DNA from: Chitinophagaceae bacterium
Lineage (GTDB): Bacteria; Bacteroidota; Bacteroidia; Chitinophagales; Chitinophagaceae
Length of the DNA stretch: 35,712 bases
Direction of reading: 5' to 3'
NCBI GenBank assembly: GCA_019247775.1
Contig: JAFBAN010000175.1
Span: forward strand, 1-35,712
Part shown: piece after piece, positions 29,868 to 35,712 of the stretch
How the letters are laid out: each line of letters starts with the position of its first letter
How positions within the stretch are numbered: position 1 is the first letter of the stretch
Notes under the pieces: model-generated
The model's database searches: none
What the model saw: only the letters and a program-made list of their open reading frames with translations
What the model was told of the DNA's origin: nothing
Program-made: the position numbers and the translations under genes

Positions 29868-30058
29868 GCGGTTAAAATAACACAATATGCGCTAGCCAGC
29901 AAGATACACCGCTCAGCCATGCAGATGTTGTGCCAGACTTCCCCCAAGCCGGAATATGACCGCTTCCTGACATTAAAACGGGATGAAACCTGTGTACAAA
30001 ACATGCAAACCCCTTGCGCATGCAAGGGGCTCAGCAGGGTAAAGAAGCGGGAATAGCC

Positions 30059-31069
30059 TTAATAGGGCAGAATATTTTCAGGACGGGTAGCCGCATTTCG
30101 CTTGGCGCCAAACAGCCAGCCGAAAGAAATTTCCATGCTCTGCACGGAACTATATGAGTTGCGGATCTGGGAGTTCACCACATCATAGCTGATGCCTACC
30201 ACCAGGTTCGGCGTTTCGAAAGCCACATAGGGATAGATCGCATCCTGGAAACGGCACCAGAGACCCAGGTTCAGTTTCTGTGTTTCTGAAAGCCTTGCTT
30301 TATATACGCCGCCGAGTGTAACTACCGTGTTCTGGCCCTGCAGATCGGTGATCACGCTGGCCTGCACCTCATCTTTGTTATTCAGCAGAAAGCGCGCCCC
30401 GGCCTGTAAGTTCACACGGCGTTCTACGCTGAATTTGGTGCTGCTGTAAAAGCCTTCTTCCGGCCGCGATGCGTGATACACGGCTGTGCCGAGATGAAAA
30501 CCCCACATACGAAAATCCTTGCTGTATCTAACGCCCATGTTCACATCCCAGTATTTGTTGGAACTGATACTCACGGGATCGCCCGAAGGAGTGGAGCGCT
30601 GAAAGCCCATGCTGCCAAACTGCGACTGGAATTCGAACTTGCTTGCATCCACGAGGCGGTTGGCATAGGTAGCTTCCAGACCTACGCCGAGATGCTCATG
30701 TCCCTGCCCGTCAAGCGCAATATTGTAAGCGGCGCCTGCGGTGAAAAAATTATTTTTCAGCAGGCCTGAATTGGATGCATCGGTCAGCAAAGAAAAGCCG
30801 AACCCGAATACGCTTTTTCCACCCGAACCCGAATGAACGCTTTTTTCAAGCGAAAGTGAAGTGGTATTGTACGGCGCCACCGAAGCGCTCCACCATTGTG
30901 AGCGGAATACACCCAGCAGCCGCCAATCGCCCACATCCTTTCCGATCAGCGCAGGATTGATGGTCATCGGAGAATTAAAGTACTGCGAAAAATGCGGGTC
31001 CTGCGCCGCTGCGGGCACGGCATACCCAACGCCCATTATCAAAGCAGCAGCAGCCAAAATTCTTTTCAT
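30059..31069 (-). CDS. type IX secretion system membrane protein, PorP/SprF family
   Basis: QDPHFSQYFNSPMTINPALIGKDVGDWRLLGVFRSQW; start reset to MKRILAAAALIMGVGYA (31069), the ORF-track start lies inside the upstream gene. Confidence 0.93.
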   Translation of the reverse strand: MKRILAAAALIMGVGYAVPAAAQDPHFSQYFNSPMTINPALIGKDVGDWRLLGVFRSQWWSASVAPYNTTSLSLEKSVHSGSGGKSVFGFGFSLLTDASNSGLLKNNFFTAGAAYNIALDGQGHEHLGVGLEATYANRLVDASKFEFQSQFGSMGFQRSTPSGDPVSISSNKYWDVNMGVRYSKDFRMWGFHLGTAVYHASRPEEGFYSSTKFSVERRVNLQAGARFLLNNKDEVQASVITDLQGQNTVVTLGGVYKARLSETQKLNLGLWCRFQDAIYPYVAFETPNLVVGISYDVVNSQIRNSYSSVQSMEISFGWLFGAKRNAATRPENILPY

Positions 31070-31091
31070 GAGTTCAGTTTTTTTGCACATC

Positions 31092-33293
31092 CTACCGCAG
31101 CAGGGTAACATTACCGGTTTTTCTGGTGATAACGCCGAACTGATCCGCCACCTCAGCTGCCCAGATATAGGTATCGATCGGTTGCGGGTCATTATTGAAT
31201 CTGCCATCCCATCCGATCGTCGGATCGGTGGTCTGGAATACCATTTTGCCAAACCGGTTAAATACCCTGAAGTACCGCAGTTGCCTGATACCTGCCAGGT
31301 TCACGAACAGTTTATCATTGACCCCATCGCCATTCGGCGTAAATACGGTAGGTACATAGATCCGGTTATCGTAGATCCGTACCAGCAAGCTGTCCACCGT
31401 AATACAGCCCGAAGGCGCAGTGATCTGTATACGGTAATCCTGATCGGCCGTTAATGTCGCAGATGGAGTACCGGAATTCGGGTTCGACAATCCTGTTGCC
31501 GGGCTCCACAGATAGGCCTTACCGAAATTGCGCGCAGGCAATGGCAGCGGTTCATTGATCACCGCGTTTGATGGCGGCTGCATGCGCACAGCCACTCTCG
31601 GTACTTCTACCGTAAACTGCTTGGTGATCGCATCTGCAAGCGCCGGGCATGCCTGCGGCGTTACTTTCAGCGTCATGCTGAAGCTGCTGGCCTGCGCATA
31701 AGTGAATACAGGCGCTGTTGCGGTGGATGTATTGTTGTTATTATCGGTCCACAGATAGCTTACCGTACCACTGGCTGCCACGGTTGAGTTGCTCGTGAAA
31801 GTTACAGGTCTGTTGATACAGTAGCTGTCGAAGCTGAAATCAGCCACCGGTTTCTGCACCGCGGTAATGGTGAGGCTGTTCGTTGCAGGCGCGGTACAGC
31901 CGCTGGCTGTAGTTACGGTTGCAGTATAAACACCGGTGGTGGTAATGGTCAGCTGGCTGCCCGTTACTCCGGTAATGGCAATGCCATTCCTTCTCCAGGC
32001 ATAGGTACTGCCGCCAGATGCGTCGAGTGTAAGCGACGCGCCGGTTCCGCACAGTACATTACCCAGTGCAGAGCTGATCACACCAGAAGGCAGCGGATTG
32101 ATCGTTACCACAACAGGCATCAGGTCTGAAGCCACGTTCGAACTATTGGTGCCTTTGATATAGTAGGTGCCGCTCGCACTCACCGCTGCCGGTGTGGCAA
32201 GCGCATTGTTGCCTGCTGCATCCGTGAAATAAGTATAAGTAAGGTTCGGATCACTGCCTGCAGTTACTGCTGCTGCGGTGAGATCAACCGTAGCCGGTGC
32301 GCAAACAGCGGCCGGATCGGTGACCACCACATTCGGTTTGGCGCCGTTGCCCACCGTGATCAGCTTAGTTGCGCTCGCACTGCAACCGGAGCCGTTCGCC
32401 ACGGTATAGGTAACCGTTGCGCTGCCACTGCTGATACCCGTGATCAGGCCGCTTGATGAGTTTACGGTGAGGACAGCCGGCTTATCGCTGCTCCAGGTAC
32501 CGCCTGCGGTTGCGGCAGTAAGGGTGGCGGTATTGCCGACCAGCACGCTGCTGACGCCTGATATAGTGGCATCAGGCAGATCGAATGCAAGCTTGACTGC
32601 TTTTGAAGTGTCGTTATAACTGGTGCCCCCGGTGATGTTACAGCGATAAAAAACCGGAGCACTGCTTACTGTGGCCGTATAGGTGCTGCTCGTTGCGCCC
32701 GCCACGTTAGACCAGCTCAGACTGTCTGCAGAACGCTGCCACTGGAAATTCAGCGATGAGCCTGTAATATTTACTGAAAGATCCGCACTGTAAGTAGGAC
32801 ATCCTCCGGAGGTAACAGTAGAGCTTGTCATCAGTCCCTGTACATTTCCATTCGGTACACCGGTCACAACAAGCACCGCCGGTGTGTTCTGGCTGGAAGC
32901 AAGCAAAAGATTGTTACCCAGCTGTATGGTTCCCGCCACAAGATTCGCGGTGTTGCTGACCGTAACAGGGGCATTTAATTGGCTGATACCATACGTATGG
33001 TTGATGACCAGGTTGCTGACGGCAGTAATACCTGTTCCCGACAGGATCACCGGTCCGCTGAGTATCCATGTAGACCCTGATCCGCTGCTGCTGATCGTGC
33101 CGTCATTCGTAAGGGTTCCGCCACCCAGTACTACCTGCACGCCGCCTGTAGTCACCAGCCGGGTACTGCCGGTAATTTTTATAGTGCCCTGTGCAAAAAC
33201 ATGCCCCGCGGTGCAAAACGCAACCACGATGATCAGGATCCTTTTCAAAATGCGCTGGCTATGTAACAAGGCTGTGTTTTTTTGTTTGGTCAA
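31092..33293 (-). CDS. secreted protein with Ig-like/PKD-type domains and a gliding-motility-associated (CHU_C, T9SS type B) C-terminal domain
   Basis: Signal peptide ...VAFCTAGHVFAQ; C-terminus IYVPTVFTPNGDGVNDKLFVNLAGIRQLRYFRVFNRFGKMVFQTTDPTIGWDGRFNN...TGNVTLLR. Confidence 0.92.
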   Translation of the reverse strand: MTKQKNTALLHSQRILKRILIIVVAFCTAGHVFAQGTIKITGSTRLVTTGGVQVVLGGGTLTNDGTISSSGSGSTWILSGPVILSGTGITAVSNLVINHTYGISQLNAPVTVSNTANLVAGTIQLGNNLLLASSQNTPAVLVVTGVPNGNVQGLMTSSTVTSGGCPTYSADLSVNITGSSLNFQWQRSADSLSWSNVAGATSSTYTATVSSAPVFYRCNITGGTSYNDTSKAVKLAFDLPDATISGVSSVLVGNTATLTAATAGGTWSSDKPAVLTVNSSSGLITGISSGSATVTYTVANGSGCSASATKLITVGNGAKPNVVVTDPAAVCAPATVDLTAAAVTAGSDPNLTYTYFTDAAGNNALATPAAVSASGTYYIKGTNSSNVASDLMPVVVTINPLPSGVISSALGNVLCGTGASLTLDASGGSTYAWRRNGIAITGVTGSQLTITTTGVYTATVTTASGCTAPATNSLTITAVQKPVADFSFDSYCINRPVTFTSNSTVAASGTVSYLWTDNNNNTSTATAPVFTYAQASSFSMTLKVTPQACPALADAITKQFTVEVPRVAVRMQPPSNAVINEPLPLPARNFGKAYLWSPATGLSNPNSGTPSATLTADQDYRIQITAPSGCITVDSLLVRIYDNRIYVPTVFTPNGDGVNDKLFVNLAGIRQLRYFRVFNRFGKMVFQTTDPTIGWDGRFNNDPQPIDTYIWAAEVADQFGVITRKTGNVTLLR

Positions 33294-33324
33294 CTGTTAT
33301 TGCTGATCGATTTCTCTTTTATTG

Positions 33325-35712
33325 TTAGTTCGGCTCAATAATTATCCATGCTACGATCGAAGTGTCCGTGCCATCTGTAGATGTGATAGTAAATGATGTC
33401 CCCGCGTTCCTGGCCGTTACTATTACAGGTACCGCTGTTGTAATAGTTCCCAGCTGCTGTACAGTGATGAATATCCTGCTGTTTGCCGTGACTTTTGATG
33501 TGTTCACAGTAGCTGATCCCGCCACTAAGGTAACCACACCCATTGTACCGCTCGCTTCCACTACAGCCAGTGCTCCTACAGAAGCGCCTGCTGTTACAGA
33601 CAACGAATTGGAAGTTGTTTTGCCGGAGACCACAATGCCTGCGGCGGAAGTGGTTCCTGTTACTGTCAGGCCAGCGCCCACTGTAGCCCCACCGGCCGAG
33701 ATCAGGGAAAGTGCGCTTACAGTTCCGGTGGTGGTGAGGTTACCGCTTCCCAGGAAAATATTGGCGGGATTGAGTGAGCCTGCCACCGCAAGATTGCCAC
33801 CGATAGATCCGTTACCCGTAATGGTAAGCGTGCCGCCGGTGATACTACCCGTAGCTGCAACGCCTGCTGCAGAAGTAGTACCACTCACAGTAAGTCCGGA
33901 TGCAACCGTTGCGCCGCCGGTAGAGATCAGCGACTGCCCGGTGATCGTACCTGTGGTGGTAAGATTACCGCTGCCGAGGTTAATGCTGCCAGGATTGAAG
34001 CTGCCTGCGACCGCAAGGTTGCCACCGACAGATGCATTACCTGTTGCGGTCAATGCACCACCTGTGATACTGCCGGTTGCCGCGATTCCGTCAGCCGAAA
34101 CAGTTCCGGTAGCAGTGAAACCTGCACCTGCAGTGATGCCGCCGGAGGATATCAACGATGCCGCGCTTTGTGTGCCACTGGTCGTAATATTACCGGCCAC
34201 TGTTGCATTCGTTGTTACTAATGATTGAGTACTTATCGTACCGGTAGTGGTAAGGCCGCCGCTGCCCAGGTTGATACTGCCAGGATTAAAGCTGCCTGTT
34301 ACCGCCAGGTTACCGCCAACAGATGCATTACCCGTTGCGGTCAATGCACCGCCTGTGATACTTCCGCTCGATGCAATGCCTGCAGTTGAAACGCTTCCTG
34401 TTACTGATAATCCCGCATTCACTGTAGCACCTCCATTGGAGATCAGCGATTGGGCCGTGATCGTACCGGTTGTGGTAAGGGTACTGCTGCCCAGGTTAAT
34501 ACTGGTTGGATTGAAGCTGCCTGTTACTGCGAGGTTGCCACCCACAGATGCATTGCCCGTTGCGGTCAATGCACCGCCGGTGATGCTGCCGCTGGATGCA
34601 ATGCCTGCAGCTGAAACCGTTCCGGTAGCGGTGAGTCCTGCACCTGCAGTGATGCCGCCGGAAGATATTAATGATGCAGCGCTCTCAGTGCCGCTGGTAG
34701 TGATATTACCGGCCACTGCGGCATTCGTTGCTGCTAATGACTGTGTGCTGATCGTACCGGTGGTGGTAAGACCGCCGCTACCCAGGTTAATGCTGCCAGG
34801 ATTAAAGCTGCCTGTTACCGCCAGGTTGCCACCCACGGATGCATTACCCGTTGCGGTCAAAGCACCGCCTGTGATACTGCCGCTGGAAGCAATGCCTGCA
34901 GTTGAAACGCTTCCTGTTACTGATAACCCCGCATTCACTGTAGCACCGCCATTGGAGATCAGCGATTGAGCCGTGATCGTACCTGTGGTGGTAAGGTTAC
35001 TGCTGCCCAGGTTAATGCTGGTAGGATTAAAGCTGCCTGTTACTGCGAGGTTACCGCCGACAGATGCATTACCCGTTGCGGTCAATGCACCGCCGGTGAT
35101 GCTGCCGGAGGATGCAATGCCTGCAGCTGAAACGCTTCCTGTTACTGATAATCCCGCATTCACTGTAGCACCGCCATTGGAGATCAGCGACTGGGCTGTG
35201 ATCGTACCGGTTGTGGTAAGGCTACTGCTGCCCAGGTTAATGCTGGTAGGATTAAAGCTGCCTGTTACTGCCAGGTTGCCGCCAACAGATGCATTACCCG
35301 TTGCGGTCAATGCACCGCCTGTGATGCTGCCGCTGGATGCAATACCCGCAGCCGAAACCGTTCCGGTAGCGGTAAGACCTGCGCCTGCAGTGACGCCGCC
35401 GGAAGATATTAATGATGCGGCGCTTTGTGTGCCGCTGGTCGTAATATTACCGGATACAGTTGCATTCGTTGTTACTAATGATTGCGTGCTGATCGTACCG
35501 GTAGTGGTAAGGCCGCCGCTGCCCAGGTTGATACTGCCGGGATTAAAGCTGCCTGTTACTGCGAGGTTGCCCCCAACAGATGCATTACCCGTTGCGGTCA
35601 AAGCACCGCCTGTGATACTGCCGCTGGATGCGATACCTGCAGTTGAAACGCTTCCTGTTACTGATAACCCTGCATTCACTGTAGCACCGCCATTGGAGAC
35701 CAGCGATTGGGC
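33325..35712 (-). CDS. large repeat protein with predicted beta-solenoid/tail-fibre-like repeats, 5' end beyond window
   Basis: Reading frame open to the window end (35710-35680 reads AQSLVSNGGAT). The listed start at 35679 is a GTG inside a repeat, so it is not a true start. C-terminus ...TANSRIFITVQQLGTITTAVPVIVTARNAGTSFTITSTDGTDTSIVAWIIIEPN. Confidence 0.88.
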   Translation of the reverse strand, partial: AQSLVSNGGATVNAGLSVTGSVSTAGIASSGSITGGALTATGNASVGGNLAVTGSFNPGSINLGSGGLTTTGTISTQSLVTTNATVSGNITTSGTQSAASLISSGGVTAGAGLTATGTVSAAGIASSGSITGGALTATGNASVGGNLAVTGSFNPTSINLGSSSLTTTGTITAQSLISNGGATVNAGLSVTGSVSAAGIASSGSITGGALTATGNASVGGNLAVTGSFNPTSINLGSSNLTTTGTITAQSLISNGGATVNAGLSVTGSVSTAGIASSGSITGGALTATGNASVGGNLAVTGSFNPGSINLGSGGLTTTGTISTQSLAATNAAVAGNITTSGTESAASLISSGGITAGAGLTATGTVSAAGIASSGSITGGALTATGNASVGGNLAVTGSFNPTSINLGSSTLTTTGTITAQSLISNGGATVNAGLSVTGSVSTAGIASSGSITGGALTATGNASVGGNLAVTGSFNPGSINLGSGGLTTTGTISTQSLVTTNATVAGNITTSGTQSAASLISSGGITAGAGFTATGTVSADGIAATGSITGGALTATGNASVGGNLAVAGSFNPGSINLGSGNLTTTGTITGQSLISTGGATVASGLTVSGTTSAAGVAATGSITGGTLTITGNGSIGGNLAVAGSLNPANIFLGSGNLTTTGTVSALSLISAGGATVGAGLTVTGTTSAAGIVVSGKTTSNSLSVTAGASVGALAVVEASGTMGVVTLVAGSATVNTSKVTANSRIFITVQQLGTITTAVPVIVTARNAGTSFTITSTDGTDTSIVAWIIIEPN
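33806..35712 (-). repeat. in-frame tandem DNA repeats of 225 bp and 291 bp inside the repeat protein gene
   Basis: Anchor GATGCATTAC-like motif at 33806 (diverged), 34031, 34322, 34547, 34838, 35063, 35288, 35579: spacings 225, 291, 225, 291, 225, 225, 291. Confidence 0.95.

Follow-up and report, generated by a model that had tools for sequence, protein, structure and literature searches.

The three minus-strand genes that close one end of the Chitinophagaceae DNA analysed here (the window, 35,712 bp) encode, as seems on balance likely, a two-part cell-surface fibre together with its carrier, in which a partner protein of the type 9 secretion system (T9SS) would bring or hold at the surface a long fibre that has no C-terminal export signal (CTD) of its own. 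The window is the entire contig C226 (35712 bp) of a 4.04-Mb genome assembled in 248 contigs, so that the fibre gene is cut by the assembly and not only by the window edge. What remains of the fibre protein, its C-terminal 795 aa (33325..35712, minus strand; the contig stops before its 5' end), is followed on the same strand, after a junction of 31 bp (33294..33324), by a partner protein with a type B (CHU_C) T9SS CTD and a TTG start (31092..33293) and, after a junction of 22 bp (31070..31091), by a carrier of the PorP/SprF family with an ATG start (30059..31069; alternative ATG at 31090). The ORF coordinates thus bear out the close spacing of about 31 and 22 bp that an earlier note on this DNA had described in presenting the three genes as an apparent T9SS operon. 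Neither junction holds a terminator-like site, and a terminator-like hairpin (12-bp stem, T-rich tail) occurs only after porP, just past its end (30006..30033, minus strand), although such sites are about as frequent in the window region as chance would have it. The link to the T9SS is likewise supported. Both SprA (2394 bits) and PorV are encoded in the genome, so that the system is present.

The fibre combines a shaft of low charge with a C-terminal knob. The low charge already ascribed to the protein holds, with 4 K/R and 6 D/E in 795 aa, and part of the shaft (34749..35358, minus strand) is an array of ~75-aa (225 bp) repeats of the form GSITGGALTATGNASVGGNLAVTGSFNPxSINLG, in which TRF finds a period of 225 with 90% matches; the shaft matches itself at lags of 75, 172 and 247 aa. 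The earlier description of a protein that does not end in a recognisable CTD stands in so far as no T9SS CTD model, of type A or of type B, matches the fibre, and needs amending in that its last 70 aa (aa 723-792 of 795; 33337..33546, minus strand) belong to a recognisable Pfam family, K1-lyase_C (PF24146, 79.6 bits, cut-off 27), placed at the extreme C-terminus. A profile of this knob (A4), built from seven relatives, matches in the PDB the C-termini of the K1 depolymerase 9k4a (9e-8) and the cyanophage tailspike 7eea (1e-7) and, weakly, 7w1c (0.1), and in viral contigs the domain takes up the extreme C-terminus in 84/84 ORFs (80 viral loci). K1 lyase is a trimer whose three C-terminal beta-sandwiches make a terminal dome (PMC8822698), and by analogy the fibre is probably trimeric, with the knob at its tip. 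The domain is rare in the family (9/399 genomes, eight of them above the cut-off), where several copies are apparently prophage-borne, and a query with the knob against the named genomes returned no relative.

The missing 5' half of the fibre almost certainly lies on contig C102, in a frame open over 930 aa in which a signal-peptide-like start (MKLLMKFSVIVFCLVCFSRLNA-Q) is read before a conserved head domain, and the head in turn is followed by TAAQPNITSLG repeats and then by VGGNLAVTGSFNP repeats like those of the window fibre. The arrays on C102 and in the window share 91% DNA identity over 767 bp, and the last 77 bases of the window occur exactly in C102, at an offset of 12; there is no exact end-to-end overlap between C102 and C226, whose join we infer. 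The fibre so joined would be no shorter than 1,696 aa and would contain 20 K/R and 14 D/E, its shaft accounting for at least ~1,500 aa. Through this inferred join, the true N-terminus and signal peptide that the earlier note would seek upstream find a candidate in the signal-peptide-like start on C102. The head (motif LDVxSxxKGxLIPRMT...GLLVYQTD) has no match in Pfam or among solved structures, and a fold search with its model (pLDDT 69) returned nothing. Phages, too, have head-like modules, as an ORF on one viral contig (L294, 3338-4924) shows, in which the fibre head takes up aa 468-520 of 528, close to the C-terminus.

Judged by its homologies, the CHU_C protein of the window (P0002) is a fibre partner. 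It consists of an N-domain, Ig/PKD modules and a CTD (aa 647-733; 31095..31355, minus strand) whose assignment to type B, as first proposed from the letters of the DNA, is confirmed by matches to CHU_C in Pfam (45 bits, cut-off 27) and TIGR04131 in NCBIfam (54.7 bits, cut-off 35). Its N-terminus, MKRILIIVVAFCTAGHVFA-Q, was taken as a signal peptide by eye, and an in-frame TTG at 33246-33248 would give a more typical MKR..AQ signal peptide. The N-domain (aa 15-138; 32880..33251, minus strand) is homologous (E=3.3e-11) to the type A partners of fibres elsewhere, as represented by a model built on 16 partners that adjoin fibres and most of which have a type A CTD, and a search of the own genome for this domain finds the window gene as best match (1.6e-10). 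Among 15 CHU_C proteins, nine of the own genome and six of relatives, only P0002 and a protein on contig C219, the latter with a weak match to the partner model (7e-5), have the N-domain, and both adjoin fibres. When the N-terminal 204 aa of P0002 were compared with 249 family genomes, the two closest homologues both came from one genome (G233) and both flank head fibres, one being a 578-aa partner with a type A CTD (E=3.6e-37) and the other a giant protein, also with a type A CTD (E=4e-27). Modelled with AlphaFold2 (pLDDT 83), a type A partner is all-beta outside its signal peptide, and at its end stands a sorting domain of which solved structures exist; a fold search with the model gave generic FnIII/Ig folds only, the N-domain being without a telling match.

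The protein on C219 belongs to a second trio in the same genome (L072, 3687-7734), composed of a fibre that ends in peptidase S74 (66 bits), the CHU_C gene 8 bp past it, and a porP gene that overlaps the CHU_C gene by 4 bp; the contig stops within this fibre gene, short of its 5' end, so its head is not visible. A third fibre, on C145 (L023, 2-4180), is at least 1392 aa long, is cut on its 5' side, has a C-terminal domain with no Pfam or PHROG match, and is followed by two FKBP-like genes. A CTD protein of 1422 aa on contig C84, with a weak match to the N-domain, was considered as the partner of the C145 fibre and set aside, no fibre adjoining it in the visible part. Long ORFs run opposite the repeat gene of the window (33362-35710, plus strand), and likewise opposite the repeat genes on C102 and C145, apparently as an artefact of the biased repeats.

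Head fibres are widespread, the head being present in 57/120 genomes of the family and in 89/396 Bacteroidota genomes sampled. A survey of their neighbourhoods (60 loci fetched) showed that many directly adjoin a type A CTD protein of ~450-500 aa, encoded before or after the fibre at a distance of mostly 7-60 bp, and all 15 partners tested from named genomes contain TIGR04183. The 69 head fibres surveyed in the family divide into 32 with a CTD or partner in trans, eight with a CTD in cis, which then stands after S74, two counted as having both, whose neighbours are not typical partners, 24 with neither and three that are cut. A same-strand CTD or partner gene lies within 100 bp of 33/68 fibres, as against 12/479 other genes of the same loci, a comparison uncorrected for relatedness among genomes that are not independent and made with lineage-specific CTD and partner models, the partner seeds of which were chosen as fibre neighbours, so that its Fisher p-value is indicative only. 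In the reverse direction, a scan of the named genomes with the partner set A3 yielded 16 near full-length loci, four of them seeds; a same-strand head fibre is adjacent at ten of the 12 non-seed loci and a fibre-like gene without the head at another, while the last is truncated by the start of its contig, leaving 11 evaluable. These loci come from Chitinophagaceae, Saprospiraceae, Bacteroidales and other taxa; more divergent giant partner-like proteins often have no fibre neighbour. Across the phylum, a smaller survey of short flanking stretches found partner or CTD neighbours in other families and classes as well (L332, L336, L347, L356). The thought in the earlier note that the CTD protein might display the CTD-less fibre is thus supported, and the comparative evidence for it is now strong. 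Tandem or single S74 head fibres followed by their own type A CTD (L130, L147, L148, L151) represent natural cis versions. Near several modules (L113, L114, L116, L118, L204, L223, L242) there are genes like those for phage tail-collar or microcystin-dependent proteins, which share the motif ..EIRMFxGxFAPxxWxxCxGQ...NYIICxxGxFPSRN.

The fibre could conceivably reach the surface, or stay periplasmic, without its neighbour, the CTD protein then being a separate co-regulated adhesin or a post-export attachment site. The 24 fibres for which no CTD in cis and no partner was detected indicate that the partner is not universal (or that the CTD models miss types), and the C145 fibre, cut on its upstream side, has no partner downstream; yet N-domain and fibre remain linked in different families and orders, whichever gene comes first and whether the CTD is of type A or of type B, and eight fibres carry the CTD themselves, which leaves us regarding independence of the neighbour as rather unlikely.

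The third gene product (P0003) had been called a PorP/SprF protein, which matches to PorP_SprF (PF11751, 120 bits) and TIGR03519 (136 bits, cut-off 90.55) confirm, and its gene stands directly 3' of the type B gene, as is usual in this genome, where all complete porP genes but one (on C164) come immediately after a type B gene. A type B CTD protein requires, or binds to, its cognate PorP/SprF (PMC9143113, PMC12618676). None of the 60 surveyed loci has a porP gene beside the head fibre. A porP neighbour is missing from every type A module surveyed and present in both type B modules of the own genome, so that the occurrence of porP follows the type of CTD, in keeping with a role of PorP/SprF in handling the export signal of the partner and not the fibre as such. 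The expectation that the three genes would recur together in relatives did not survive, since the C-terminal region of the fibre turned up in no other of the 61 genus genomes searched and, within the genus, the nearest orthologues of the window PorP (45%, 42%) are encoded after giant CHU_C adhesins. The exact trio is accordingly rejected as a conserved unit; what is kept is a fibre with a CTD partner, to which porP is added only where the CTD is of type B.

These facts bear on a further alternative, namely that an ordinary type B CTD/PorP pair, as in SprB/SprF, lies by chance downstream of an unrelated repeat gene. We consider this improbable: the partner N-domain is confined to the two fibre-adjacent CHU_C proteins, one genome holds two independent trios, and the nearest homologues of P0002 flank fibres too, even if such pairs are common (PMC12618676), as also within this genome, where nearly all porP genes follow a CHU_C gene, and the trio is missing from the rest of the genus sample. 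Very improbable, finally, is a prophage remnant with a phage tail fibre gene stranded beside a T9SS pair, for although 182 viral relatives show how common the knob is among phages and the shaft weakly matches tail-fibre PHROGs, a signal-peptide-like N-terminus and the head are found on C102, no phage structural or replication gene was recognised by eye in the window or in the sampled C102, and the head occurs in only 2 ORFs across the 80 knob-bearing viral loci.

In the favoured arrangement of a CTD-less fibre with a T9SS partner, fibre and partner would enter the periplasm by Sec, and the fibre would trimerise with the knob at its distal end. The CTD of the partner would take the partner through SprA, and PorP/SprF would receive this CTD from the SprA translocon and hold it in the outer membrane. 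The partner, which may be needed for export or serve attachment only, would carry the CTD-less fibre along or catch it, leaving the head proximal and the tip outward, and the contact would probably be between the partner N-domain and the fibre head. Adhesion to a polysaccharide or a surface is the probable role of such a fibre. As to movement, P0003 has no Cys in its last 25 aa, so no CxC motif there; the C219 PorP likewise has no C-tail Cys, and most other PorPs of the genome have one. Their tails (L066-L070 and relatives) mostly hold a single Cys, as in KGIPCFF, VNCPKF and FVCPRL. SprF requires CxC for its bond to the moving track via GldK (PMC12635249), and no porE-like gene was recognised beside the window porP; track-driven gliding is thus not predicted, and a static or freely floating anchor appears likelier.

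Each part of the locus is of a known kind, and what is apparently undescribed is their combination, a phage-like fibre without a CTD and a CTD protein dedicated to it as partner: a T9SS fibre module of this kind, including the type B/PorP form, was found nowhere in the literature searched, which covered few subscription papers and preprints. We know of no T9SS cargo that does not carry its own CTD. As a tentative generalisation, possible and somewhat short of probable, one may speak of a two-partner type 9 secretion, in which CTD-less tailspike-like trimers would be exported or anchored in trans by a CTD partner that recognises their head, with variants in cis and in trans, of type A (with PorV) and of type B (with their own PorP/SprF), and with exchangeable tips of phage type. 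If true, fibres without a CTD that depend on the CTD of another protein would enlarge the set of Bacteroidota surface proteins beyond what CTD searches find, and tips of phage tailspikes would have been reused as binding heads on bacterial surfaces. The module offers natural cis/trans and type A/type B variants, with two small adjacent genes.

Among known systems, SprB/SprF of Flavobacterium johnsoniae resembles the locus in that porP/sprF comes immediately after a type B CTD gene, and the SprF-type carrier exports and anchors its CTD protein (PMC9143113, PMC12618676). SprB, however, is a giant adhesin that bears the CTD itself, whereas in the window a separate CTD-less fibre is encoded upstream, and the C-tail Cys lacking from the window PorP is present in SprF as the CxC that bonds to GldK (PMC12635249). 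The C-terminal domain of the fibre is homologous to that of K1 lyase and the tailspikes (PDB 7w1c, 9k4a, 7eea) and is likewise terminal; unlike them, the fibre has no match to the catalytic part and is a host protein, with a signal-peptide-like N-terminus, a head, a repeat shaft and T9SS neighbours. The type Vc trimeric autotransporters are comparable as presumably trimeric surface fibres of low-complexity beta-repeats, but anchoring of the window fibre would fall to a separate T9SS protein, and no Pfam match to a YadA-type membrane anchor was obtained in P0001, P0004 or P0005. The Bacteroidota tail-fibre proteins with peptidase S74, an intramolecular chaperone, have the head in common with the fibre; S74 forms the end of many head fibres, whereas that of the window ends in K1-lyase_C, so that the tips vary on a common type of head and shaft.
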